From assembly GCA_947589745.1 (NCBI GenBank), contig CANQCS010000012.1, positions 1-53,177 on the forward strand: 53,177 bases of DNA, written 5' to 3'. The position numbers and the translations under genes were made by a program. The notes beneath the pieces are model-generated. The model did no database searches. It saw nothing but the letters and a program-made list of their open reading frames with translations, and was not told the DNA's origin. Below, piece after piece: positions 28-12,275 of the stretch (positions are counted from its first letter, which is position 1; each line of letters starts with the position of its first letter). The stretch is from an uncultured Oscillospiraceae bacterium (GTDB taxonomy: Bacteria; Bacillota; Clostridia; Oscillospirales; Oscillospiraceae).

Positions 28-1044
28 ATGTACAGATACACAGAAGAAGACAGAGCGATCATATCCGCGGCGCGCAAAGCAAATAAGGATAAACGTGCGT
101 AAAAGCGGCTGCACGCAATAGAACTGCGGGCATCGGGAAAAAGCGTAGCGGAAGTGGCAAAAGCAACAGGTTTCCATCCGGCCTATATCTCGCAGCTGTC
201 GGCAAAATACCACAAAGGCGGGATCGAGGCGATAGCAGGAACCACTATGGCGGGAATCACAAGAATATGGACCGTGCGGCAGAAGCCGCATGATTGGAGC
301 CGTATCGGGAGAAGGCACAGCAAGGTCAGATCGTGGAAGTATCAGAGATAAAGGCAGAATACGTGAAATCGGTGGGGCACAGGATAGGGGGAAGCCAGAT
401 CTACTGCGTGCTGAAACGGCATAACTGGCGGAAAGTCATGCCACGGAGCAAACATCCGCAGAAAGCGGATGAGGAGGCGATCGAAGCCTCAAAAAAATGA
501 ACGCTCGGGTAAAAGAACTGCAGTTCTCCACGGGAAAGAGGGTGCGGCTGATGTTTCAGGACGAGGTTGGATTTGGGCGGATCAACAAGCCCAGGTATTG
601 CTGGTGTGAGAAAGAGGTCCGGCCTGTCGTTCCCTGCCATCACATAAGAGAATACAGGTACGCCTACGGCGCTGTGGAGCCTGTTACAGGAGAGAGCTGC
701 TGCCGTACTGCAATACGATCTGCATGAATGTGTTTTTAGAAGAACTCTCCAAGCAATATCCAGCTGATACGATCCTGCTGTGTTGTGACGGCGCAGCTTG
801 GCCCAAATCCAGGGAGTTAGTCGTTCCTGAAAATATCGTTCTATTCTTCCTGCCGCCATACACGCCGGAGATGAATCCCATCGAACAGATTTGGGAGGAA
901 GTGCGCAAGCGCGGTTTCAAAAATAAAGCCTTTGCCTCTCTGTCAAAAGTCATCGACCGCCTTTGCGATACCATCTGCTCCCTATCCGCTGACGTGATTT
1001 CCAGCATTACAGGCAGAGAGTGGATTGTTAAATGTTTTAATTAG
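28..1044 (+). pseudogene. IS630-family transposase, decayed
   Basis: The pieces together read as one DDE transposase of about 340 residues. An ATG at 28 opens a helix-turn-helix N-terminus (KSVAEVAKATGFHPAYISQL), interrupted by an in-frame TAA at 100-102. The reading then moves through other frames near 290, 500 and 725. The catalytic signature is still legible across the fragments: D in MFQDEVGFG, D in LLCCDGAAWP, and E in the typical IS630 block YTPEMNPIEQIWEEVRKRG. One programmed frameshift would be normal in this family, but a nonsense codon plus several shifts means the copy is dead. I could not define its terminal inverted repeats. It marks the left edge of the accessory island. Confidence 0.88.
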
Positions 1045-1656: not shown

Positions 1657-1859
1657 GGGAGAATAGTATCAAAGCTGAAGCTGTAGAATGGGAGAGAAAT
1701 AGCAATGGAAGTTTTTCGGTATCCCATGATCATTGATTTGGTGTTTACCGTTGATTTTGGCTTTGGCATATAGGTAAGGTAGAGGTTTCTGGCATCAACT
1801 TCAAGGATAAAAACGGCATCAAGTCCTCTTTTGGTCCAGTTCTTTCTTTTCCAGGTCAT
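1620..1859 (-). CDS. Possible out-of-frame tail of the preceding gene
   Basis: This minus-strand frame overlaps the 3' end of the 187-aa gene by about 40 bases. It reads on as a plausible protein (GLDAVFILEVDARNLYLTYM, then a lysine-rich and a hydrophobic stretch) before running into the AT-rich repeat, where it ends with LEVYIVTVWEM. The upstream gene stops at DQKRT just where this frame gives TKRGLDAVF, so a single-base frameshift in the last gene of the cluster is one explanation. A separate overlapping gene or chance openness are the others. I do not recognise the family. Confidence 0.3.
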   Translation of the reverse strand: MTWKRKNWTKRGLDAVFILEVDARNLYLTYMPKPKSTVNTKSMIMGYRKTSIAISLPFYSFSFDTILPLEVYIVTVWEM

Positions 1860-2382
1860 TGATAATTACACTGAGAGGAGTTGTTCCCTCGGCCTGCAGA
1901 GGAATTTCAAAATAGGGGAATGTGTATAGGTGTTTTTGCTTTTGACGAGGATCCGCCGCTATGGGAAATTGCTTGGCGTATCTTCCCCGAAGTTCAGTCC
2001 CGTTGATGTACCATCGGGATACCCCGGTTTTTTCTGAAGGTGGAAGTACCCTTGACAGGCTCTCCAGGAGTTCATTGAGGTGTTTCCATTCCCATCCTCT
2101 TTTCAGGTCAGGGAATGCAACTTTTTCAAGGACCCTGTCACTGCACAACAAGATACGGAACTGGTCGCGCTCTGTGTTCATTTGATAAACGTCGATGATA
2201 CGCTCCCACAGTCTGGGGCCCCAATCAAGCGACGTATCTCCATCCAGTTGTATCTCTGTCCACGGTTCTTTGGCCTCATCCTGCGACCCCTTGACTGCAT
2301 CTTGCCAACACCCATGGGCCCGGTCCCTCTCATCTACAAATAAGACAAGGAAAAGATGGCGTCCGACTGCATCAACGGTCAT
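1819..2382 (-). CDS. Unknown 187-aa protein, last gene of HerA cluster
   Basis: I do not recognise a family. The start is placed at MTVDAVGRHLF, with GGGGGA upstream, so it overlaps the end of the preceding gene by about 11 bases; this implies translational coupling and a shared transcript. The N-terminus (HLFLVLFVDERDRAHGCWQD) looks like a beta-strand core. The rest is mixed and charged with several tryptophans (LDWGPRLWERIIDVY, DLKRGWEWKHLNELLES). There is no signal peptide or membrane segment, so it is probably cytoplasmic. Its C-terminus may be frameshifted into the frame that runs on to 1620. Confidence 0.7.
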   Translation of the reverse strand: MTVDAVGRHLFLVLFVDERDRAHGCWQDAVKGSQDEAKEPWTEIQLDGDTSLDWGPRLWERIIDVYQMNTERDQFRILLCSDRVLEKVAFPDLKRGWEWKHLNELLESLSRVLPPSEKTGVSRWYINGTELRGRYAKQFPIAADPRQKQKHLYTFPYFEIPLQAEGTTPLSVIINDLEKKELDQKRT

Positions 2383-3088
2383 TTTGCTTAGTCCCCCATA
2401 TCTCCTGGTAGGCCCTTTCAGCCTGCTTGACGCGAGGAACGGCATCCTTCACGGAGTCCGCCTCCCCAATTTGAACTATGTAGGTCTTCAAAGTGTTATT
2501 GACCGTACTCAGTTCGCTACTACCACTGGAGAGCTTCCCACGGAGGAAGGCATCGATGCTACTGCCATTGGTAATCCCGTTTTCCTTCATGGAGTCTATC
2601 AGGAACTTGGCATTCTCTGGCTTACCGTTTGTCAGATAGACGGCAGAGCGCCAGAATTCTGGCTTCAATTCCATATGGTTTCTCTCTTCCATATCCCTGA
2701 CATAGAGGCCGGTACCCACGATGGCATATTTTGTCCGATCTTCCTCGTTCAGCGCATTCAGTTTTTCCCGGTCAATCTTGATATCCTGACGCAGATGTTC
2801 GATGTATGCCTCTGTAGAAGCAAAATCATCAGGCTTACGATTCCCCTTTTCCACGTCTATCTCCGCCTTCATCCCTATTTCTTCCGGCGTTTCTTCCTCC
2901 GGCTTATCGCAAAATGATTCCGCAATGCTACTTACGATCGATATCACTGCGCGGCAGATCCCCACACCAAAACCAAGTACACCTTCAGCAAAACTTCTGA
3001 TGCCACTCATGACAGCGCCGCCAATAGCGGAGCAGACTGACCCTACAGTACTGATAAATCCGCCGATAGCGCTAAAAAGTCCAAACAT
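2372..3088 (-). CDS. Protein with glycine-rich hydrophobic N-terminus, cluster partner
   Basis: The start at 3088 (MFGLFSAIGGFIST) has GGGAGG seven bases upstream; an open codon run to 3106 is upstream of that site. Residues 1 to ~62 are glycine-, alanine- and isoleucine-rich with repeated small-residue spacing (SAIGGAVMSGIRSFAEGVLG), like a glycine-zipper or membrane-inserting segment. The remaining ~175 residues are soluble, charged and probably helical (EAYIEHLRQDIKIDREKLNA). It lies 50 bases after the HerA-like gene and overlaps the next gene. I infer that it could be a membrane-acting component of the cluster, but no family match was recognised. Confidence 0.72.
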   Translation of the reverse strand: MFGLFSAIGGFISTVGSVCSAIGGAVMSGIRSFAEGVLGFGVGICRAVISIVSSIAESFCDKPEEETPEEIGMKAEIDVEKGNRKPDDFASTEAYIEHLRQDIKIDREKLNALNEEDRTKYAIVGTGLYVRDMEERNHMELKPEFWRSAVYLTNGKPENAKFLIDSMKENGITNGSSIDAFLRGKLSSGSSELSTVNNTLKTYIVQIGEADSVKDAVPRVKQAERAYQEIWGTKQNDR

Positions 3089-3137
3089 GATGATACCTCC
3101 CAACACAAAATTATTCTATTTATTAAGACATTTCTTT

Positions 3138-6100
3138 TCAGTGCAATTGGAAATATTCGTCGTTATCGATGAGGTCCAGTGCCTCCCGCCCCTGCGGGTA
3201 AGCCATGATATATTGTAACAGTGTTTCTCGCATACCGTTCTCCCGTTCGGTCCCAAGCAGTTCTGCCAGTCCTGGTCTGCTCATAATGAGCCAGTCTACC
3301 ATATCCTTCGGCTGGAAAACATTCCATTCCAACATGTCTGCCAGACGCTTGGCACGATGTTCGTCCCACTTGGGATGGAGTATCCTGCGGAGCATATCGG
3401 TGGTAATAAAACGAAGGACGTACTCACGCCGCTCCACCGGCCAACCGGCGATATCCGCAGTGGGACGTAGCAGTATGGGGCGGCGGCACTCCGTATAGTA
3501 GTAGCGAAATGCCCGTTCTCTCAGGACGGTATCCTTCAGGGGAGCCTCGGATGTGTCTGTATCCTTATCAATCTGTATTTGTACGGCTTGTCCGATCCCA
3601 TCCGCAAACAGCACCGCCCTTCCGGTGGCGAGATTGGAGAGGAAATCCTTCTGCTCTTTACTCAGTGCCATGGTACTGCCGATAGTATCCTTGTCATCCT
3701 GGGCAAAAATGCGATGGACGATTTTGGTATTGGTGTTTTTCAGCACATCTTCCGCCATCTTGTTGGGGATCTGGTCCGCGATGATCAGGCACTCCCCGTA
3801 TCTGCGGATCTCCGCCAGCATATCGGAAAAGGTCTCCACACCGTGCTTCTTGTTCAGGCTGTCCCCGGGAGTGAAACGGCTGAGCAGACGATGGGCCTCC
3901 TCCACCAGCAGGATATGGGCGTGCTGGCGTCCCTCCCTCAGATAGCGCTCTCGGACGGCTTCGATAAAGGCGGTGAGGATGAACCCCATGACCAACGATT
4001 TTTCGCTGCCACTTTTGATTCCTTCCAACTCAAAGACTACCTTTTTGTCCAGAAGGGCATCCCAATCTATGGACCGGACAGCATCCAGCATATCCCCCTT
4101 GGCCCCCAACACCAGACTCTGGAGACGCGCCTTTATGGAGCCGATATACTCATCCTTCAAGCGTGCGTCAAATCCCTGCTCTACGACAACATCCTCAATC
4201 ACATCCAGCAAGTCGCTGAGCCGTGGGAATGCGCTGGCATTGGGGGCGAAGGGGTCGGAGCACCTGTCGTTTTCCCCAGTCTGAATATCCCATCCATATT
4301 TTTCATAACAAGCGTAAAGCGCACGTTCAATAAGCTGTGGAATCGCTGCCTCCATATCAAAGGCGGCCTCGATACTGGCCTTGAGCATATCCACATGGGA
4401 GGAGATGCTCTCCTTGGGTTGGAATTCCAACGGATTCATCCGAAATGGCGCTACATTTTCGTCTCCCAGAGTGAAGACCAGTAGATCTTCGCAGGCTGTG
4501 TTGTTTTTTATGATCCGGTACTCCGTCTTTGCCGGTTCGATCACAAGGAATGGATGCCCGCTTTGGACCAGGAGTTTCTGACAGGTAGTGGTTTTGCCAC
4601 TGCCGGTGACACCGGAAACAAAGATGTGCTTGTCCAAGGTCTGCTTGTCCAGATAGACAGGAATATTGATGATCCGGCCGTTCTGTACCATACGTCCCAA
4701 CCGCAGACGATCCTTCTCCTCAGGAATCTTACAGTTGAAACCGAACTCCACCTCCGCCCGCAGACGGAGGCCAGCCACCTCCTTGCGGGGCAGGCCCGCG
4801 ATCATAGCGAGCTCATTGGTGGTGATCCAGTTCCCGATAGGGAAGTCATCGGTAGCGGATACCGGTTGAGAGAGAAACGCTCTGGCAGTTAGTTGCTCCC
4901 TGTCGATGGGTGAAGTGAATCTGCCACTGGGCATCTGTAGTTGATAGGCAGCGTTCAACTGCTCCCCATTCCCCTTAAGAGGGAGTTTCGGTGCCTTCAG
5001 CGAAAAAGTGCGCAAGGGCACGCGGCTGCCCTGCTTTCCGGAATAGAGGGACAGCACGGTATTCTCCAGCTTTACCAAGGCACTGGGACTTTTCGTCATA
5101 GCGTAAAAGGCGGACGTGAAAAGCCCTTTGCCCTTTCCGTAATCCAGACGGGGTAGGATTGCTTCGTCGCAGTACTTGAGCCATTCCTGTACGCAGCGGT
5201 CAGTATATTCTGTGTTAAGGGACCAGGAATGCCCCTCGTTGCTGCCACTTTGCTGGCTGGTACTCTCGGAAGACCCCTCTGAGCGGCCGCTTCCAGTCTG
5301 TTCTGTAGCATTGTTCGTGGTCGTATGGGACTCACTGCTACTTGAGCTTCCACTGCCAGTCGTTTTTCCGTGAGGGCTTTGGGTAGATACTTGGGTCCCT
5401 TTAGCAGTGGATTTGGACTGGTTCTCAGAATATCCTTTGTTCGTACCAGATGTTTTGGTGGTCCCCTGATTGGTCCCAGAGGACAGGCTCTCCTGACGGG
5501 TCAAGGTCTGATAGGGACTTAGGGCGTTGTATGCCTCATAGATGGTGCTCTCGATGTCCTCAATCTCCTTCTGTCGCAGAGCTTTCGCAATAACAAGGAG
5601 CACGAACTCCTCGCCCTGCATCACATCCACCAAACGATCAACGCTCTGGAAACGCTCGTCATCCTTGATGCTGCCGGCGACGCCCTCGACACGGGACACA
5701 TACCGCATCTTCCGGAGCCTCTCCAAAACAGGATCCTTCTCCGCTGCTGTGAGTTTGACCACCTCGCTGCCCCGAAAGTTGCCCTCCAGACTGGCTTTCA
5801 GAACGCTTTCGCCGATCTCAGGAATGGACAGCTCACTGTCCAGTGCGGTGGAATGATCACGGGAAAGACCGTAGTAGAACCGGACCCCATTCCTGTCGCC
5901 CTGAAGGAGATAGATGAAGTTTATCCCAGGGATCCTGGCGGCGCTGAGGACATTTTCCAGAGCCTCCTTCCACGGTGCCTCCTCCTCATAGGTGACCTCA
6001 TCTACCCGGAACAAAATGGAATCCTGCGCCTCCAGAGTCCGTGCAAAAGTCAGCTTGAGTTCCTGAGGAGCGCAGTTTGTCAGATAGATCTCCTCAGCTT

Positions 6101-6167
6101 TCGCCAAAAAAGGCAGCATTGGCGGCGGTCCTGGCAATTTCTTTTTTATCTCCATATAATCTGCCAT
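3138..6167 (-). CDS. HerA/DUF87-like P-loop ATPase with Ser/Thr/Gly-rich insert
   Basis: This 1009-aa protein starts at MADYMEIKKK with GGAGGAACG upstream. Residues 1-220 are a mixed domain (INFIYLLQGDRNGVRFYYGL). Residues ~224-315 are an extreme low-complexity Ser/Thr/Gly/Gln/Asn stretch. The ATPase follows: Walker A GVTGSGKTTT at ~519-528, Walker B HILLVEEAHRLL at ~751, a sensor-like IADQIPNKM at ~796, and NTNTKIVHRI at ~811 as in HerA/VirB4 motors. The C-terminal ~140 residues are helical. HerA/DUF87 enzymes are hexameric motors, often paired with nucleases in repair or phage defence. No nuclease is adjacent here; the neighbours are an Hsp70-like protein and unknown proteins. Confidence 0.88.
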   Translation of the reverse strand: MADYMEIKKKLPGPPPMLPFLAKAEEIYLTNCAPQELKLTFARTLEAQDSILFRVDEVTYEEEAPWKEALENVLSAARIPGINFIYLLQGDRNGVRFYYGLSRDHSTALDSELSIPEIGESVLKASLEGNFRGSEVVKLTAAEKDPVLERLRKMRYVSRVEGVAGSIKDDERFQSVDRLVDVMQGEEFVLLVIAKALRQKEIEDIESTIYEAYNALSPYQTLTRQESLSSGTNQGTTKTSGTNKGYSENQSKSTAKGTQVSTQSPHGKTTGSGSSSSSESHTTTNNATEQTGSGRSEGSSESTSQQSGSNEGHSWSLNTEYTDRCVQEWLKYCDEAILPRLDYGKGKGLFTSAFYAMTKSPSALVKLENTVLSLYSGKQGSRVPLRTFSLKAPKLPLKGNGEQLNAAYQLQMPSGRFTSPIDREQLTARAFLSQPVSATDDFPIGNWITTNELAMIAGLPRKEVAGLRLRAEVEFGFNCKIPEEKDRLRLGRMVQNGRIINIPVYLDKQTLDKHIFVSGVTGSGKTTTCQKLLVQSGHPFLVIEPAKTEYRIIKNNTACEDLLVFTLGDENVAPFRMNPLEFQPKESISSHVDMLKASIEAAFDMEAAIPQLIERALYACYEKYGWDIQTGENDRCSDPFAPNASAFPRLSDLLDVIEDVVVEQGFDARLKDEYIGSIKARLQSLVLGAKGDMLDAVRSIDWDALLDKKVVFELEGIKSGSEKSLVMGFILTAFIEAVRERYLREGRQHAHILLVEEAHRLLSRFTPGDSLNKKHGVETFSDMLAEIRRYGECLIIADQIPNKMAEDVLKNTNTKIVHRIFAQDDKDTIGSTMALSKEQKDFLSNLATGRAVLFADGIGQAVQIQIDKDTDTSEAPLKDTVLRERAFRYYYTECRRPILLRPTADIAGWPVERREYVLRFITTDMLRRILHPKWDEHRAKRLADMLEWNVFQPKDMVDWLIMSRPGLAELLGTERENGMRETLLQYIMAYPQGREALDLIDNDEYFQLH

Positions 6168-6189
6168 TTATCGTTCCTCCCAAATATCC

Positions 6190-7761
6190 TTAGTCCAGTT
6201 TAACCCGTTCAGGACCAAACTTATAATTTCCAGCGTCCGCGTCTTCTTTACTGGCTGCGACTACGTATTCCAATTCACTGGGCGAAACCGCCCGAAGGAA
6301 GATGCTCCAGTCCTCGTTGACTGCGTTGTCAGGGAGCTGCCTGCCGCAGACCTTTGTCTCCGTCATGGGAAGCATCACTCGCCTGCCAGCTGTGGGAGAG
6401 GTGGTGTAGTAAAATTCAAAATCCGCTACACCGGCGTCGTAATATTCATGCCACTGTCCGTAAGGGGTGTCCCGTGTGATCAGTGCTTGGAAGTGACCCT
6501 CGTATTCACGGTCCTCTTCACCAATCCAGAATTTGAATTTGATCTCCTCATTGCTTGCCTTTTCAGAGACAACTTTGATCGTCCCGCCCTCGCGGCATTG
6601 TACCAGGCCGATAGCCACGCCTGTCTTACCGGTGGGACGGCCCAGTTGGTCGCCATCACGCCAGCAGTTTCGTGCTTTCATCTTTTCACAGGCTTCCTCC
6701 GTCCCAAGGGGAGGATACAATTCAAAGTATTCTTGTTCTGCGGCCTGGTCTTCCCCTCGTTTTTGATACTCCTGCCGGATGGAGTCTGTGAGCTGGCGGA
6801 GGCCGGCATCAAACTCCTCCCGAAGGATAGCCGACTTGCTGGAATTGCCAGCCAGGAAGATGTGGAACCGCTCCACCTGCTGATTTTCCAACAGCTTGTT
6901 GCGGAACACACTGCGCAACGCGTCGATAAAGCTGTCAACGCCCTTTCGGATGCGTTTGCGGAGCAGTTCTTCCATCTCCTCCATATCGATCCGCAGCTCC
7001 GCCGTGGTCTCTTCTCCGCGGCTAGTGAACAGGCGCAGGCGGATGACGCCGCGCTCATAATTTTTCTCGTATCCTCTCGTGCGCTCCCACAGAGGACGCA
7101 GAGCCTCCATGAGCTGCCTCGTGTTGGTACGCGCCTGCTGAGAATCAGAGAGGATCCGCTCACTGCCCGGGAACTCCTCCTCTTCTTCCGGCAGGGTAAA
7201 GGGCGCATCGAACTTGCGCATGATCTCCAGGTTGTTCCGAAAGCTCTCAAAGGCCATGAGTTCCAGCAGATTTTCACCTCCCAGGCGCCGGTCGCCGCCA
7301 TCGCCGAAATGAGTGATGACATAGGTGTACCGGCGCTCTTTGGCAGAGGCCTTCCGCCACACACCAAAGTCAAAATCCGTGGTGCCGCCCCCAAAGTCGA
7401 AAATGCCGAAGTAGACGTTCTCTCCCTCCCGCGGTTTGAAGCCGTACTCCTGGAGCGCGCAGACCGCATAAGCCGCGGGCTCGCCCGCCCCCTGTTTGAC
7501 AGAGAATTTCGAGAAGACAGCCTCGTCGTTGCGCACCGCCGGCGGCAGGGACTTGGCAAGTCCCTTGCGGAAGCTGTTCAGAATGCGCTGCCGGATATTC
7601 AGATCGTAGGTCACGGGGAAAGACAGAAGATACTTCAGATAGATCCGCCCCGAAAAGATCTGGTTGATATACAGGCCGATGTAGTAGGCATAGATCTCGA
7701 TAGGATCGAAGTCGCCCTCCTTCAACTGGGAATACATAGGCAGAGTCAGATCCTGTCCCAT
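6190..7761 (-). CDS. Hsp70-like ATPase, 5'-truncated
   Basis: The 523 residues carry an Hsp70/ASKHA nucleotide-binding domain: phosphate-2 loop FGIFDFGGGTTDFDF at ~118-132, adenosine loop IFLAGNSSKSA, and GKTGVAIGLV near the end of the domain. A ~130-residue C-terminus is unlike DnaK's substrate-binding domain. The phosphate-1 strand (the DLGTTNS-type motif), which should lie ~75 residues before the visible start, is absent. In frame, only seven codons (NVTIRDK) precede the ATG before a TGA, there is no ribosome binding site, and the upstream DNA reads as something else. The gene has probably been cut by a deletion or insertion near 7785 and is likely non-functional. It ends 22 bases before the HerA-like gene. 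Confidence 0.8.
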   Translation of the reverse strand: MGQDLTLPMYSQLKEGDFDPIEIYAYYIGLYINQIFSGRIYLKYLLSFPVTYDLNIRQRILNSFRKGLAKSLPPAVRNDEAVFSKFSVKQGAGEPAAYAVCALQEYGFKPREGENVYFGIFDFGGGTTDFDFGVWRKASAKERRYTYVITHFGDGGDRRLGGENLLELMAFESFRNNLEIMRKFDAPFTLPEEEEEFPGSERILSDSQQARTNTRQLMEALRPLWERTRGYEKNYERGVIRLRLFTSRGEETTAELRIDMEEMEELLRKRIRKGVDSFIDALRSVFRNKLLENQQVERFHIFLAGNSSKSAILREEFDAGLRQLTDSIRQEYQKRGEDQAAEQEYFELYPPLGTEEACEKMKARNCWRDGDQLGRPTGKTGVAIGLVQCREGGTIKVVSEKASNEEIKFKFWIGEEDREYEGHFQALITRDTPYGQWHEYYDAGVADFEFYYTTSPTAGRRVMLPMTETKVCGRQLPDNAVNEDWSIFLRAVSPSELEYVVAASKEDADAGNYKFGPERVKLD

Positions 7762-7838
7762 TTTATCCCGGATGGTGACGTTTCAATAAGAGGATAGTAA
7801 TTTTTTACCAAGATGGCAGCCCTTCCAATTTTCGGTGA

Positions 7839-8085: not shown

Positions 8086-8313
8086 TCACTTCCTGTACAT
8101 CTCCTCCAGACCGTCCAGCACACGCTGGACCTGGCTGCTGTCGAACTCCGGGTTGTGGTCCACGAGCCGCCGGACAGTGGCCACGAGCTCCAGGCCCTTC
8201 CCATAATCCTTCCTGTCCCAAATCGTCCCGGTCTCCTCCATCAGGTCCATAATGTACATCATAATCGCCAATTTGACCAGATCCTCGTCGATCTCCACGG
8301 ATTGCATGTTCAT
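8086..8313 (-). CDS. Small 75-aa protein, paralogue 2 of a tandem pair
   Basis: The start MNMQSVEIDE follows an AAGGAGG site. It is clearly paralogous to the gene just upstream. The two share MN..SV at the start, Y.M.LM.E in the first helix, the block DY.+G..LV.T.+R++D..P, and a terminal EE.Y. The protein is probably all-helical, acidic and cytoplasmic, with no signal or membrane segment. I recognise no family. The pair shares a promoter at ~8604 that resembles those of the WYL and GTPase genes. It may be a small regulatory or scaffold protein of this locus. Confidence 0.75.
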   Translation of the reverse strand: MNMQSVEIDEDLVKLAIMMYIMDLMEETGTIWDRKDYGKGLELVATVRRLVDHNPEFDSSQVQRVLDGLEEMYRK

Positions 8314-8343
8314 TCTCTGCGCCTCCTTATTCGTCCAACGCCG

Positions 8344-8571
8344 TCAGTTCCCGTATTTCTCCTCCATGTTTTTGATAAAATGCCGGACGTTCTCGTTCTC
8401 CAGGGCCGGGGTGCTGTCAATGATCCGTTTGAGGGTCTTCACCAGCGTCCTTCCTCTTTCGTAGTCCTCCTTGTCCGAGAGCGCCTTGATTTCATTCATC
8501 AGGCGCATGACATATAGAATGACCCCGCTTCTCACCTGATACTCGCTGTTCTTCACAGATATGATGTTCAT
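8344..8571 (-). CDS. Small 75-aa protein, paralogue 1 of a tandem pair
   Basis: The start MNIISVKNSE follows AGAAGGAGGT. Its length is identical to that of its downstream paralogue, with the same helical pattern (YVMRLMNEIKALSDKEDYER, then VKTLKRIIDSTP). The genes are 30 bases apart and must be cotranscribed. A tandem duplication kept at equal length but only about one-third identical suggests that each copy has a distinct role, possibly as a heterodimer. The function is unknown. Confidence 0.75.
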   Translation of the reverse strand: MNIISVKNSEYQVRSGVILYVMRLMNEIKALSDKEDYERGRTLVKTLKRIIDSTPALENENVRHFIKNMEEKYGN

Positions 8572-8720: not shown

Positions 8721-9698
8721 TTATGTTTCATTCTCACTATACTGACGGAGCATCCCCTCCAAGTCCCTACGGACTTCCTCCACGTAGGATGCCGGTGACA
8801 CGACGCGCACCCAAGGGCCCTGGCTGTAGAGCCACATCTTGATCCCGTCGCCGTAGACCTCCGCTTCCAGCAGGTACTTGCCTTTCTCCTGCCGCAGGAT
8901 GCGGGACGCGGGCAGCCGGTCCAGCACCGCCTGCACCGACGGCCCGGTGTACTCGAACCGGATGGTCCGGAGCTCCCCGGGGAACATGAACTGGCTCCGC
9001 TCCCGCAGCAGCCCCTCGTCGAACTGTTCCTCCGGCCTCAGAGTGAAGGTGGTCCGGTGCTCGATGATCTGCTTGATCCGGTCCACCCGGTAGTAGGTGG
9101 GGCGCCGGGTCTCGTCCCCGTCCCGGTAGGCGATGAGGTAGAAGTAATACTCCGAGAACATCAGGGACAGGGGCTGCACCCGCCGCTCGTTGTAGGTCCG
9201 GTCCGAGCGGTAGTAGTGGATGGTGACCTCCTGCCGCCGGGAGATGACGTCCGCCAGCTTCCACAGGGTGTCCTGGAGGCTGTCGCAGTCGTGCTTCACC
9301 TCGTGGTACCGGGCCAGCTCCTTGTCCAGGAGCTTGTCCAGGATAGGCCGGTCCCGCCGGGTGGTGAGGCGCTTGAGCTTCTCCACCAGGGCGAAGGCCT
9401 CCTCCCTGTCCAGGGCCCGGGTGTCCATCAGCATTTTCACCAGCACGAACAGCTCCTGGTTGGTCAGCACCTCGTCCATGCTGAGGCGGTAGGCCTTCTC
9501 CTGGTAGTCATATTCCAGCTCCGTGTGGCCCACCAGCTCCCGGTGGTCGGCGCAGAAGGCCTTCAAATCGCTGAGGTCCCGGCTGACGCTGCGCTTGGAG
9601 ACGCCGTACTCTTCCGCCAGCTTCTGGGCGGACAGCGCCTCGCCACGCAGTCCCCGGAAGAACAGCTCCAGCAGCCGGTCCTGCTTTGAATACTCCAT
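8721..9698 (-). CDS. WYL-domain transcriptional regulator (DeoR/YafY type)
   Basis: This 325-aa protein starts at MEYSKQDRLLELFFRGLRGE; the open frame extends upstream through promoter DNA, so the later ATG was chosen. Residues ~20-60 are a winged helix-turn-helix (LAEEYGVSKRSVSRDLSDLK). A middle linker is followed by the WYL domain (~145-235), with VTIHYYRSDRTYNERRVQPL, SEYYFYLIAY and YYRVDRI. A C-terminal WCX extension ends the protein. WYL proteins sense nucleic-acid or nucleotide ligands and often control defence loci. The gene has its own promoter and lies between the GTPase and the small gene pair, whose promoters resemble its own, so it is the obvious candidate regulator. Confidence 0.9.
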   Translation of the reverse strand: MEYSKQDRLLELFFRGLRGEALSAQKLAEEYGVSKRSVSRDLSDLKAFCADHRELVGHTELEYDYQEKAYRLSMDEVLTNQELFVLVKMLMDTRALDREEAFALVEKLKRLTTRRDRPILDKLLDKELARYHEVKHDCDSLQDTLWKLADVISRRQEVTIHYYRSDRTYNERRVQPLSLMFSEYYFYLIAYRDGDETRRPTYYRVDRIKQIIEHRTTFTLRPEEQFDEGLLRERSQFMFPGELRTIRFEYTGPSVQAVLDRLPASRILRQEKGKYLLEAEVYGDGIKMWLYSQGPWVRVVSPASYVEEVRRDLEGMLRQYSENET

Positions 9699-9729
9699 TT
9701 TTTCACGGCCTTTCCTGTCAGATGTTTCC

Positions 9730-9758
9730 AGTATACCGCGATCTCCCGGTCCTTGCAA
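9730..9758 (-). promoter_or_regulatory. Sigma-A-type promoter of WYL gene
   Basis: On the minus strand TTGCAA (9753-9758), 17 bases and TATACT (9730-9735) match the housekeeping consensus. The spacer ends CGCGG as at the GTPase promoter. A GTGACAAAT element lies just upstream. Confidence 0.7.
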
Positions 9759-9776
9759 GTGCCGTTCCGCCATTTG

Positions 9777-10817
9777 TCACGAAAGCAGCGTGTCCAGCAC
9801 GCCTACCACCAGTCCGAAGGTGCCGCCGATGACCTTGCCCACCAGCCAGCCGGGGACACCCAGCACCTCCTGGCCCAGCTCCGCCGCCTCGTCGGCCCAC
9901 ACGGACATCTCCAGGCCGATGTCGGAAAAGATGCTCCGCTTGTAGTCCGCCTTGCCGTCGTCGTCCTCCCAGGCGTCCTCGTCCCGGTTCAGGTTGTCCA
10001 CCACCGCCAGCCGCTTGTCCGCCGGGATGCTGCGGACGATGTGGTAGAGGAGCTTGGCCAGGTTGTAGGGCCGCTGCTGGTCCTGCCCCTCCTCCTTGAA
10101 TCCGGCGCAGTAGCACACCGGGCACACCTCCGCGCCGGTCTCCTCCTTCACCCGCTGGGCGATGGAGCGGACCTTCTCCTCCAGAAAGGCAGAGAGGACT
10201 GCGTCCGGCTCGTTCTTCTCATAGTCCCAGTGGCGCCCGCCTCGCATGGCGATATCCGCCTGGTTGATGGCCACCAGGATGCGGGAGGTGTCGCCGTCCA
10301 GGGCGGGGAGGATCACCTGGCTGATGAGGCGGTAGGGGGTGCCCAGGTCCTTGGCGGAGGCGTCCAGGATCACCAGCACCAGGTCGATGAGGGGACGGCC
10401 CTCGCCGTCGGTCTCCCGGAGCTTGTCCGCGATCTCCCGGATGTGGCGCTCGTCGGCCTCGCCGCCATCCCCCAGACCCGGCGTGTCCCACAGCACCAGG
10501 TTGCCCAGAGCGTACTCCTGGATCTCGTCGGTCTCCGGGTCCACCCCGGCCCCCACCTGGGCGGCCTCCACGTACTCCGGCTCGCCGCCGGCCACCCGGC
10601 CCGCCGCCACTCGGTCGGCGTTGAAGAGGGCGTTGATGGTGGAGCTCTTGCCCGCGCCGGTGGGGCCCACCACCATGAGATTGGTCCTGGTGGTGCTCAG
10701 GCGGTAGACCTTCTTGAGGAACTTGGTCTTCTCCTCGTCCGGCAGGTCTGCCGAGAGCACCTCCTTCTCCAGCAGGTCGTAGATGCTGTCCATCTTGGTA
10801 TCGACATGGTCTGTCAT
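9777..10817 (-). CDS. Era/YfjP-like GTPase
   Basis: This 346-aa P-loop GTPase starts at MTDHVDTKMD after AAAAAGGAGAG. G1 is VVGPTGAGKSS at ~49-59, G3 is WDTPGLGDGG, and G4 is the non-standard NQAD in place of NKxD. A cysteine pair CPVCYCAG falls in the later G-domain. The C-terminus is glycine-rich and hydrophobic (GVPGWLVGKVIGGTFGLVVG), suggesting membrane contact as in DUF697-type GTPases. YfjP/Era-like GTPases of this kind are common in stress and phage-conflict loci. It is cotranscribed with nothing on its 3' side except possibly WYL, which has its own promoter. Confidence 0.85.
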   Translation of the reverse strand: MTDHVDTKMDSIYDLLEKEVLSADLPDEEKTKFLKKVYRLSTTRTNLMVVGPTGAGKSSTINALFNADRVAAGRVAGGEPEYVEAAQVGAGVDPETDEIQEYALGNLVLWDTPGLGDGGEADERHIREIADKLRETDGEGRPLIDLVLVILDASAKDLGTPYRLISQVILPALDGDTSRILVAINQADIAMRGGRHWDYEKNEPDAVLSAFLEEKVRSIAQRVKEETGAEVCPVCYCAGFKEEGQDQQRPYNLAKLLYHIVRSIPADKRLAVVDNLNRDEDAWEDDDGKADYKRSIFSDIGLEMSVWADEAAELGQEVLGVPGWLVGKVIGGTFGLVVGVLDTLLS

Positions 10818-10990: not shown

Positions 10991-11434
10991 TTATAGAAAA
11001 TCGTCCTGGCTGCCGATAGCAAATGTTGGGGCCAGTTCAACGGCAAGGCCATGTTCTCTGTCCCAACTGCATTCCATCAGGAGCAAGGTGGTACCATCCT
11101 GTTGGAACAACAAAGTCGTAGGGTGAACGACTTGGCTGACGTCCTCTGCGGAGAAGAGCATCCGCGCACCCGGCCACGTTGCCGCCAGTGCCTCGCAGTT
11201 CTGGTCAACATAGGCGATGATCTCCTCGGTGGTCCTTTGATTTAACATCTCCCGGTTTTGGGAAAACCAGAGATAGCTTTCCCGCTGCCGATCTGTAATC
11301 AGCTTGCCGGAATATGCTTTCGCGGCAACAGTGACCGGCCATACACGGCCAAATAAAGAAAGAGACTCTTTTTTATACCACCGGTGCTGATAGGACATTT
11401 CTCCAAAAACAGGATCATGACACACTGATTCCAT
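10991..11434 (-). CDS. DUF6985-like protein, candidate toxin immunity protein
   Basis: This 147-aa protein starts at MESVCHDPVFG, with AAAGGATAC upstream and 20 bases after the toxin fragment's stop. The pattern (FGEMSYQHRWYKKESLSLFG, then WPVTVAAKAYSG and a later run of strands) resembles DUF6985-type proteins found beside polymorphic toxins. It is cytoplasmic, with no membrane segment. Its position directly after an HNH toxin domain supports an immunity role, since toxin-immunity pairs are normally adjacent in this order. The family call is from memory of the pattern and is moderately secure; the role is inferred. Confidence 0.6.
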   Translation of the reverse strand: MESVCHDPVFGEMSYQHRWYKKESLSLFGRVWPVTVAAKAYSGKLITDRQRESYLWFSQNREMLNQRTTEEIIAYVDQNCEALAATWPGARMLFSAEDVSQVVHPTTLLFQQDGTTLLLMECSWDREHGLAVELAPTFAIGSQDDFL

Positions 11435-11454
11435 ACAAAATGTATCCTTTCTTA

Positions 11455-11780
11455 TCAATTGGATGAATCCGGATGACGTGCCTTAAATTCCGATATGCCT
11501 CCGGAGTGGGATATGTTGCCGTGGATCTCGCGAGGCACTTTCAGCATGGTGGAACAGTCGGGGCATTCATGCCAGGTATACCGGTTTTCGTGCCGCCACT
11601 GTGCCACCTCCTCCGGAGTGCATCCCCGCTGTGCCGCCAGTTTCTCATCCGCCTGATCAAAATTGCTGTCCCGCTCGGAGGAAAAATCGTCGATCTGGAC
11701 ACTTCCCCTTGCGATCTCTGTAAAATCGGGGTATCCGCCAGAAAAGCTGACCTTCTGGAGGGTATCCGCAGCATCACGGC
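11455..11780 (-). pseudogene. Polymorphic-toxin C-terminal HNH nuclease domain, orphan
   Basis: About 105 residues carry the hallmarks of an HNH/Endo VII toxin tip: the pretoxin phrase KVSFSGGYPDFTEIARGSV, then QWRHENRYTWHECPDCSTML, and KVPREIHGNISHSGGISEFK with the catalytic histidines. Such domains sit at the C-terminus of secreted LXG/WXG, CDI or T6SS proteins. Here the delivery part is missing: upstream of ~11775 the minus frame runs antisense through a serine recombinase remnant. The toxin is therefore a tail without a launcher, although its candidate immunity gene is intact. Confidence 0.72.
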
Positions 11781-12275
11781 TTATATGAGGAATCATGAGG
11801 ACGAATTCGTGCGGATGGTCACGAAGAAGTCTCAAGAGGAACTGAGCCGCAGCCTGCGGGACAGCAAGCGTGAACTGGAGCAGGCACAGGCCGTATCCGC
11901 AAGCTGGACGAGATCATCCAACGGCTCTATGAGGACAACATCGCGAGGAAGATCACCGACGAACGGTTCAGCCGGATGAGCGTCAGCTATGAGGAGGAAC
12001 AGCACACGCTGGAGAGCCGCGTGACTGAATTGAAAGCCCTGATCGCGTCGGAGAAAGAACGTAGCGTCAATGTGGACAGCTTTCTCGCCATTGTGCGAAA
12101 GTACACGGACATCCAAGAACTGACCGCCGAGATCATCCGCGAGTTCGTGGAGAAGGTCTATGTCTACCAGGCCGAGCGCGTAGCAGGCTACAAAATCCAG
12201 CGCATCCGCATCGTGTGGAACTGTATCGGAGAGTTCTACCCGCCAGCCACAAAAGGGCAAGAAAAAACGGCATAG
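11770..12275 (+). pseudogene. Large serine recombinase, C-terminal remnant (DUF4368)
   Basis: The sequence ITAYMRNHEDEFVRMVTKKS joins, after a one-base shift near 11890, to ARKITDERFSRMSVSYEEEQ, ELTAEIIREFVEKVYVYQAE and a typical IRIVWNCIGEF tail. This is the C-terminal region of TnpX-like serine recombinases of integrative elements. The N-terminal catalytic and recombinase domains are absent, so this is a scar left by a lost element. The 5' junction cuts directly into the toxin gene on the opposite strand. Confidence 0.82.

Follow-up and report, generated by a model that had tools for sequence, protein, structure and literature searches.

Among the described systems closest to the locus analysed here are the Type III-A CoCoNuTs, for which the pairing of a motor with a small helical protein was already noted in 2024 (PMC11090510). 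As the available part of that paper describes this extension, a VirB4-like motor with a variable beta-rich insert stands in an operon with a small helical protein, with TerY-like vWA genes and CoCoNuT nucleases on either side. Polymorphic toxin systems of the T7SS/YueA-FtsK class place an FtsK/HerA-superfamily motor beside toxin and immunity genes, according to the sections available of Zhang et al. (2012, PMC3482391), and motors of the same superfamily act in Sir2-HerA, DUF4297-HerA and HerA-NurA. An Hsp70 chaperone belongs to the GTPase-centric conflict systems of Kaur et al. (2020, PMC7159879), where it is paired with GTPases/tubulin or GrpE, with no HerA/p244 pair in the portion of that source consulted. 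Finally, co-occurring gene clusters in H. pylori include a “DnaK homolog, WxG100 family” and a “WXG100 secretion system” (PMC4978471), which in the accessible part of that work are table entries without a mechanism, a HerA or a p244 protein.

The window, the whole stretch of 53,177 nucleotides analysed here, contains four genes (Table 1) whose positions, minus-strand orientation and tight spacing were given correctly in an earlier note. They are a damaged copy of a cassette that recurs across several bacterial phyla. The core of this cassette is an ATP-driven motor with a tightly linked, membrane-seeking partner of the p244 family, often but not always joined by a dedicated Hsp70-like protein. 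The four genes are not a unit by themselves, as had been proposed, since the fullest set consists of a coiled-coil protein, Hsp70, motor, p244 and a protein of ~170 aa. All five genes occur together, for example, in L045 (Natroniella) and L028 (Heliorestis).

Table 1. Features at the locus; the first four rows form the four-gene cluster, and identities refer to genes near related motors.
Feature	Position	Strand	Remarks
Hsp70-like protein, N-terminally truncated, 523 aa	6190..7761	-	NCBIfam PRK11678, weak, E 0.0037
HerA/VirB4-like motor ATPase, 1009 aa	3138..6167	-	looks intact
p244-family protein, 238 aa	2372..3088 (ATG; a GTG start gives 2372-3106)	-	near-obligate motor partner
187-aa orphan, in the slot of the ~170-aa family	1819..2382 (an upstream ATG gives 208 aa)	-	
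Two paralogous 75-aa proteins	8086-8313, 8344-8571	-	between WYL and truncated Hsp70; membership uncertain
WYL-domain transcriptional regulator	8721..9773	-	39% over 299 aa to L102, 34% over 310 aa to L109
P-loop GTPase, LeoA/IRG/septin-like	9777..10817	-	weak: 36% over 86 aa to the GTPase upstream of the L110 motor
DUF6985 protein, classed as immunity-type from its place after the toxin tip	10991..11458	-	Pfam DUF6985 E 2.2e-14
WHH/colicin-DNase-type toxin, C-terminal tip, N-terminal part missing	11455..11835	-	Pfam WHH E 1.1e-13, Colicin-DNase 1.9e-11

The assignment of the motor to HerA/DUF87 is borne out by Pfam DUF87 (E 3.5e-6) and PADLOC HerA/mad8, and the protein scores 108 bits against NCBIfam NF033849, under the cut-off of 650 for that model. 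Its nearest folds are VirB4 and DndH-C, with HerA, TrwB and DNA-translocase models such as CedD also matching, and an insert rich in Ser/Thr/Gly/Asn spans about residues 229-322. A VirB4/HerA-like motor with a variable beta-rich insert and a small helical protein share an operon, as in the CoCoNuT extension; the EccE3-like N-terminal domain itself gave no match. From the description in the part of PMC11090510 at hand, we infer that the CoCoNuT pair and the motor/p244 pair belong to the same family. The flanks differ, in that Hsp70 and a coiled-coil gene are usual here, and neither TerY-like vWA nor CnuB/C/E/H genes were matched among the eight genes searched at the locus. Unlike the motors of Sir2-HerA, DUF4297-HerA and HerA-NurA, the protein has an insert rich in Ser and an extended N-terminal region, and neither the four genes nor those conserved partners that were scanned include a Sir2, DUF4297, NurA or other nuclease or NADase match.

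The gene-neighbourhood search proposed earlier showed that the linkage recurs in unrelated genomes and that the grouping exceeds chance. Of the 79 best-matching motor loci, out of at least 504 motor relatives, 71 have a p244 homologue on the same strand no more than 8 kb away (HMM search; median gap 17 bases). Three of the remaining eight loci end at contig borders, and five fall outside this motor clade. In trees that omit motor proteins shorter than 800 aa, one clade holds all p244 rows, with 7 label changes compared to 31.5 in shuffles (labels from a stricter gene call, two contig-end rows being unlabelled). Eight loci contain two p244 genes.

In the p244 family, the N-terminal ~60 residues are hydrophobic and rich in small residues, while the remainder is polar and helical. 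Hydropathy reaches at least 1.6 in some 19-residue window in 51 of 66 p244 rows, and small-xxx-small pairs number 742 against 542 ± 16 in shuffles, so by both measures the membrane-seeking N-terminus suggested for the window protein holds family-wide. The AF2 model of the window protein is all-helical (pLDDT 91, pTM 0.87), with no close PDB match. The two p244 proteins scanned (window and L036) contain no known toxin domain and no Pfam WXG100 match; the best domain matches, PPR (E 0.15) and RelA_SpoT (E 0.023), fall short of the cut-off. The polar part shows conservation, not polymorphism, as would suit an adaptor or a piece of a channel no less than a toxin. The 187-aa protein showed no relationship to the ~170-aa family (clusters 7, 16, 30, 36 and 9), with an hhalign probability below 1% and HMM E-values of 220, then 33 and 2.8. 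Neither p244 nor the 187/208-aa protein of the window contains a toxin or immunity domain, and six ~170-aa proteins scanned matched no immunity family.

The earlier identification of an Hsp70-like protein was right in kind, but the gene is broken, its product having 523 aa compared to 855-1054 aa in 43 long homologues. The first ~440 residues are missing; homology begins at about position 7785 with an in-frame TGA just upstream, and the lost part turned up neither in the window nor elsewhere in the 252-contig assembly. The truncation may stem from an assembly error at the junction. The protein retains a DFGGGT motif and lacks the N-terminal GIDFGT-type motif, its ATPase domain being incomplete because the N-terminal part is gone. 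By regular expression, 29 of the 43 long homologues have both phosphate motifs and all 43 have the central motif. The coiled-coil gene is absent from the window. With the N-terminal part of Hsp70 lost and no coiled-coil gene, a regulated function is therefore unlikely here, though the motor and p244 look intact.

An Hsp70-like gene, mostly accompanied by the coiled-coil gene, is located near 40 of the 79 motors, and about half of the loci lack it. This pair is the commonest kind of regulatory neighbour, and the neighbours are exchangeable: dynamin-like GTPases, TerY-P-like kinase/phosphatase/vWA genes and DUF2357 gene sets also occur, PP2C or vWA genes stand beside motor and p244 in 6/79 loci, WYL genes are near 14/79, and the regulatory context switches several times along the motor tree. 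The pair also precedes other modules. In L098 it is upstream of WXG100-like, WHH toxin, SMI1 and FtsK genes, and in L137 and L138 upstream of a DUF4280-AHH toxin, followed in L137 by Imm11; in Pfam, the WXG100 domain of L098 (24.0 vs 27.3 bits), AHH in L137 (22.2 vs 22.3) and both domains of L138 are below the cut-off. The H. pylori clusters, in the table entries available (PMC4978471), likewise tie a DnaK-like gene to WXG100 genes, as in L098.

Of the genomes of 149 relatives, 6 (own included) have the motor and solely the window's own has Hsp70. The motor is present in 19 of the 391 genomes of a class sample, two of the 18 besides the window's own being weak matches (G162, G304) left out of locus retrieval, while Hsp70 and p244 are confined to the window's own genome. 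In the phylum sample, 6 of 398 genomes (own included) contain Hsp70; of the other five, two have motor and p244 adjoining, two have a DUF4280-AHH toxin instead and one has neither. Of 72,556 plasmids, two carry Hsp70, adjoining the motor in one and FtsK in the other, and one carries p244. Few members of this lineage therefore carry the full set, and Hsp70 is not exclusive to this motor. Among the loci compared, no genome but the window's own yielded relatives of the 75-aa paralogues.

Single-sequence scans of viral collections with the window Hsp70 and motor gave no matches. With profiles, eight partial matches to Hsp70 (21-40% identity) and two to the motor (25%) turned up, and phage records gave no Hsp70 match. 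A prophage origin was set aside within these collections, which gave no sign of a phage module. The Atlantibacter motor had no DNA match in E. coli genomes.

The slot behind sister motors often contains a nuclease toxin, followed by immunity genes. Among 30 first genes (29 directly after sister motors, from 29 of 32 loci with a gap below 150 bases, and the window's toxin tip), there were matches to Colicin-DNase (6), WHH (6, largely the same proteins), GH-E (2), LHH, Endonuclea_NS_2 and TNT (1 each); most of the 29 have no recognised toxin domain. The 25 second genes (23 with a gap below 150 bases, L110 with a gap of 248 added by hand, and the window's) matched SMI1/SUKH families (5), DUF6985 (3), SUFU (2) and YezG (1). 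WHH, GH-E, LHH and SUKH, listed for polymorphic toxin systems in the sections available of PMC3482391, thus recur in the sister loci, and both cassette types are placed back to back in L044. The toxin tip in the window shares 64% identity across 99 aa with the gene that immediately follows the motor in L109, and 41% across 101 aa with its counterpart in L092. The DUF6985 protein shares 48% identity across 147 aa with the gene two places behind the L109 motor; the pair is common to the window and L109. The earlier statement that no nuclease is present thus stands for the four genes but not for their surroundings, where the WHH-nuclease toxin tip and the immunity-type gene lie on the same strand. 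A toxin after the motor with adjoining immunity is not seen in the four genes; toxin and immunity-type families are matched by this separate pair. The locus departs from the T7SS/YueA-FtsK class, so far as PMC3482391 could be consulted, in that p244 has neither a toxin domain nor a WXG match and the window genes searched gave no T7SS match.

Since toxin genes adjoin related motors, the cassette most likely deploys a membrane-active toxin. Our preferred reading, to which we give slightly less than an even chance, is that the locus represents, in damaged form, a mobile cassette for toxin deployment (a conflict cassette) with exchangeable regulators. Under this inferred mechanism, p244 would be the cargo or effector, an all-helical protein whose Gly/Ala/Ser-rich N-terminus inserts into a membrane, and the motor would thread or load it through or into that membrane. 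Hsp70 and the coiled-coil protein may restrain cargo or motor until a signal arrives, and the ~170-aa product may serve as immunity protein or chaperone. The slot argument for p244 is by analogy, because the toxin/immunity neighbours belong to sister motors. A broader proposal, which we consider possible and hold with less confidence, is that of an undescribed, phylum-spanning export route, in which a lone VirB4/HerA-like ATPase without a conventional apparatus would deliver p244 as a glycine-zipper-like membrane toxin, gated by a dedicated Hsp70 and coiled-coil protein that would be reused before WXG100/FtsK (T7SS-like) and DUF4280 (PAAR-like) toxin loci as a general toxin safety catch. No VirB6/VirB8/VirB10-type or other secretion-channel genes were identified among the eight window genes or the 25 commonest families of the 100 neighbour genes.

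Less likely, though still deserving weight, is that p244 instead anchors the motor in the membrane, forms a subunit of its channel or acts as a WXG100-like adaptor, the true cargo being encoded elsewhere or being the ~170-aa protein. The near-obligate presence of p244, the conservation of parts of its polar region and the WXG100-like protein in the same neighbourhood as an FtsK motor in L098 are consistent with such a role, whereas the toxins often found directly downstream of sister motors and the loci with two p244 genes are closer to cargo than to a fixed subunit. Somewhat more doubtful is an intracellular anti-phage (abortive infection) function, in which Hsp70 would sense, the motor transmit and p244 permeabilise the host's own membrane. 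The sensor role proposed earlier for Hsp70 stays conjectural, and the window's copy has lost the start of its ATPase domain. WYL, CARF, PglZ and JetD-type models do match among 100 neighbour genes, taken from 179 at 18 selected loci (those above 900 aa, the shortest and 25 of a 125-gene list being omitted), and some neighbours are of kinds known from defence. However, that scan has no genomic background control, the four genes lack a nuclease or NADase effector, and sister cassettes bear toxin/immunity pairs of the polymorphic-toxin kind, which may favour toxin deployment at least as much as phage defence. A DNA-translocating motor for restriction, repair or conjugation (of the HerA-NurA, Sir2-HerA or coupling-protein kind) is very improbable, since despite the HerA, DndH-C, TrwB and CedD matches of the motor domain, no NurA, Sir2, DUF4297 or relaxase was matched in the four genes or conserved partners scanned, and the partner protein is hydrophobic and helical.

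The literature searched, including the available part of PMC11090510, yielded no description of the cassette in its Hsp70 form or of its toxin link. Hsp70-like proteins occur in several bacterial conflict loci, where their job is not established, and the presence of Hsp70 and the coiled-coil protein before three different toxin/effector modules makes the idea of Hsp70 as a toxin safety catch directly testable. The cassette also suggests a possible role for motors that are labelled merely “serine-rich protein” or “DUF87” in databases, and for the small helical partner, which the CoCoNuT paper, as far as its available text goes, does not explain (PMC11090510).

The coordinates and minus strand reported for the four genes in the earlier note were confirmed by sequence in the window. 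The motor is of the VirB4/HerA type and matches DUF87 (Pfam), HerA/mad8 (PADLOC) and the "serine-rich protein" NF033849 (NCBIfam), the last with a score of 108 bits where the cut-off is 650. Its Walker A and Walker B motifs lie at residues 519 and 752, and it retains all 57 columns that are invariant across 39 homologues.

A search of genome contigs with an alignment of four motor sequences yielded at least 595 pattern matches, at least 504 of which were confirmed as motor relatives. The 79 best matches, an uneven sample, were kept, and partner genes were sought in them by profile searches over all ORFs. The recurrent linkage in unrelated genomes that the earlier note proposed as a check was supported: p244, the small partner family, was located within 8 kb and on the same strand as the motor in 71 of the 79 loci, with a gap of at most 60 bases in 61 of these, and Hsp70 in 40. 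The ~170-aa family was present in 35 loci and a coiled-coil protein in 34, of which 33 also contained Hsp70. Among the eight loci lacking p244, three are on contigs that end at or inside the motor gene (L019, L020, L091), and five fall outside the p244 motor clade (L088, L092, L094-L096). By an earlier, stricter gene call, the Hsp70 loci (40) span five phyla and the p244 loci (66) at least eight. A typical gene order is coiled-coil, Hsp70, motor, p244 and ~170 aa, as in L036; many proteobacterial loci instead have Hsp70 and the coiled-coil gene downstream of the motor. Eight loci (L022, L030, L040, L052, L070, L072, L081, L082) contain two p244-family genes each, a pattern that might be expected of cargo arrays.

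Changes of neighbour context were counted on a tree of 85 motors and compared with label shuffles. The Hsp70 context (42 rows) changed 11 times versus 28.7 when shuffled, the dynamin contexts (9 rows) 3 versus 8.7, the DUF2357 contexts (4 rows) 2 versus 4.0, and the TerY-P-like PP2C/vWA contexts (6 rows), which are placed among the Hsp70 rows, 4 versus 5.9. These changes show that the motor and p244 stay paired while their regulatory neighbours are exchanged.

The cassette form is real and recurrent, and apparently undescribed. The nearest published account is that of Type III-A CoCoNuTs (PMC11090510), and no account of the Hsp70-motor-p244 set was found in the open-access passages searched, which included those of that paper and of PMC7159879, PMC3482391, PMC4978471, PMC12839542, PMC10933484 and PMC6759196. 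Nor did any open-access paper found name DUF87 and polymorphic toxins together.

The copy in this genome is damaged. Its Hsp70-like ORF is the C-terminal portion of a larger protein, starting at about residue 440 of the long homologues (855-1054 aa, n=43), and the homology begins a few codons 5' of the ATG at 7761, immediately past an in-frame TGA. Neither a remnant of the N-terminal part nor a coiled-coil gene was found within the window, and the N-terminal part was not found elsewhere in the assembly. The recombinase-like end that adjoins this tip may lie at the boundary of a mobile element in decay. The paired 75-aa proteins had no relatives among the searched loci of other genomes and no family matches above curated cut-offs.

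Features in and around the cassette
Position	Strand	Feature	Basis or remark
154-1044	+	fragments presumably of an IS630-type transposase	3' of cassette
1819-2382	-	187-aa protein	
2372-3088	-	p244-family protein	
3138-6167	-	motor	
6190-7761	-	Hsp70-like protein	
8086-8571	-	two paralogous 75-aa proteins	
8721-9773		WYL regulator	adjoins toxin/immunity pair
9777-10817		GTPase	adjoins toxin/immunity pair
10991-11458	-	DUF6985 immunity-type gene	DUF6985; 48% identical to gene after toxin in L109
11455-11835	-	WHH-nuclease toxin tip, N-terminal part missing	Pfam WHH; L109/L092 relatives
11976-12275	+	presumed serine recombinase C-terminal end	adjoins toxin tip

Motors of the same superfamily occur in 19 of 391 genomes of the class sample, the window's own genome included. 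The sister-motor set combined 12 earlier loci outside the p244 clade with 20 stretches, of which two came from earlier searches and the others from 18 places in 16 of the remaining 18 class-sample genomes. Toxin/immunity pairs follow some of these motors. A Pfam scan of 30 proteins, 29 encoded directly 3' of sister motors plus the window toxin tip, identified Colicin-DNase (6), WHH (6), GH-E (2), LHH (1), Endonuclea_NS_2 (1) and TNT (1), the remainder having other domains or none recognised, while the 25 second genes, including that of the window, contained SMI1/SUKH (5), DUF6985 (3), SUFU (2) and YezG (1). As a loose comparison, 100 genes neighbouring the motor in p244-clade loci were scanned, and none of their 25 commonest families is a toxin or immunity family of this kind. 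A short N-terminal motif, searched as a regular expression, was common to three of the 1645 ORFs, each of the three being encoded behind a sister motor (sites including L112 5724-7366 and L109 7172-7819); their C-termini are dissimilar by eye, which hints at a polymorphic-toxin design, and the motif could possibly be a loading signal for the motor family.

Both kinds of putative cargo are present in the window. Over 99 residues the toxin tip shares 64% identity with the product of the gene directly 3' of the L109 motor, and over 101 residues 41% with that in L092, and WYL/GTPase kinds of gene occur 5' of the motors in L102, L109 and L110. The two cassette types are adjacent on opposite strands in L044 (1532-15213), one with a P-loop protein (GTPase-like by eye), motor, WHH-type toxin and SMI1, the other with coiled-coil, motor, p244, ~170-aa and Hsp70 genes.

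The linkage and gene order are observed, as is the membrane-seeking character of p244. We suggest that the motor would act as a protein translocase with p244 as its cargo, Hsp70 as the gate and the ~170-aa protein as an immunity protein or chaperone. The main rivals are that p244 is itself an anchor or channel, and that the cassette is an intracellular suicide system.

The strongest hint that Hsp70 and the coiled-coil protein guard or prime toxin deployment comes from other toxin loci. Hsp70 was found in six of 398 genomes of the phylum sample, the window's own included; of the other five, two have the motor and p244, two a DUF4280-AHH toxin and one neither. In L137 (6564-15606), the coiled-coil and Hsp70 genes precede one for an AHH toxin with the PAAR-like DUF4280, DUF4280 exceeding its cut-off and AHH at it; next come Imm11, a protein of 730 aa and one that weakly resembles Hcp/TssD (E 0.0024). 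Coiled-coil and Hsp70 genes also precede a DUF4280-AHH toxin in L138 (5947-8336), where both domains score under the cut-off. On a Helicobacter plasmid (L098, 5100-13810), the coiled-coil gene and an Hsp70 in two frames are located upstream of a toxin locus, with a protein of ~213 aa, which has weak similarity to the ~170-aa family, after Hsp70, and then a WXG100-like protein (24.0 bits, under the cut-off of 27.3), a WHH toxin, an SMI1 immunity protein and an FtsK/SpoIIIE motor. The placement of the pair before other toxin modules indicates that it is not bound to the HerA/VirB4-like motor.
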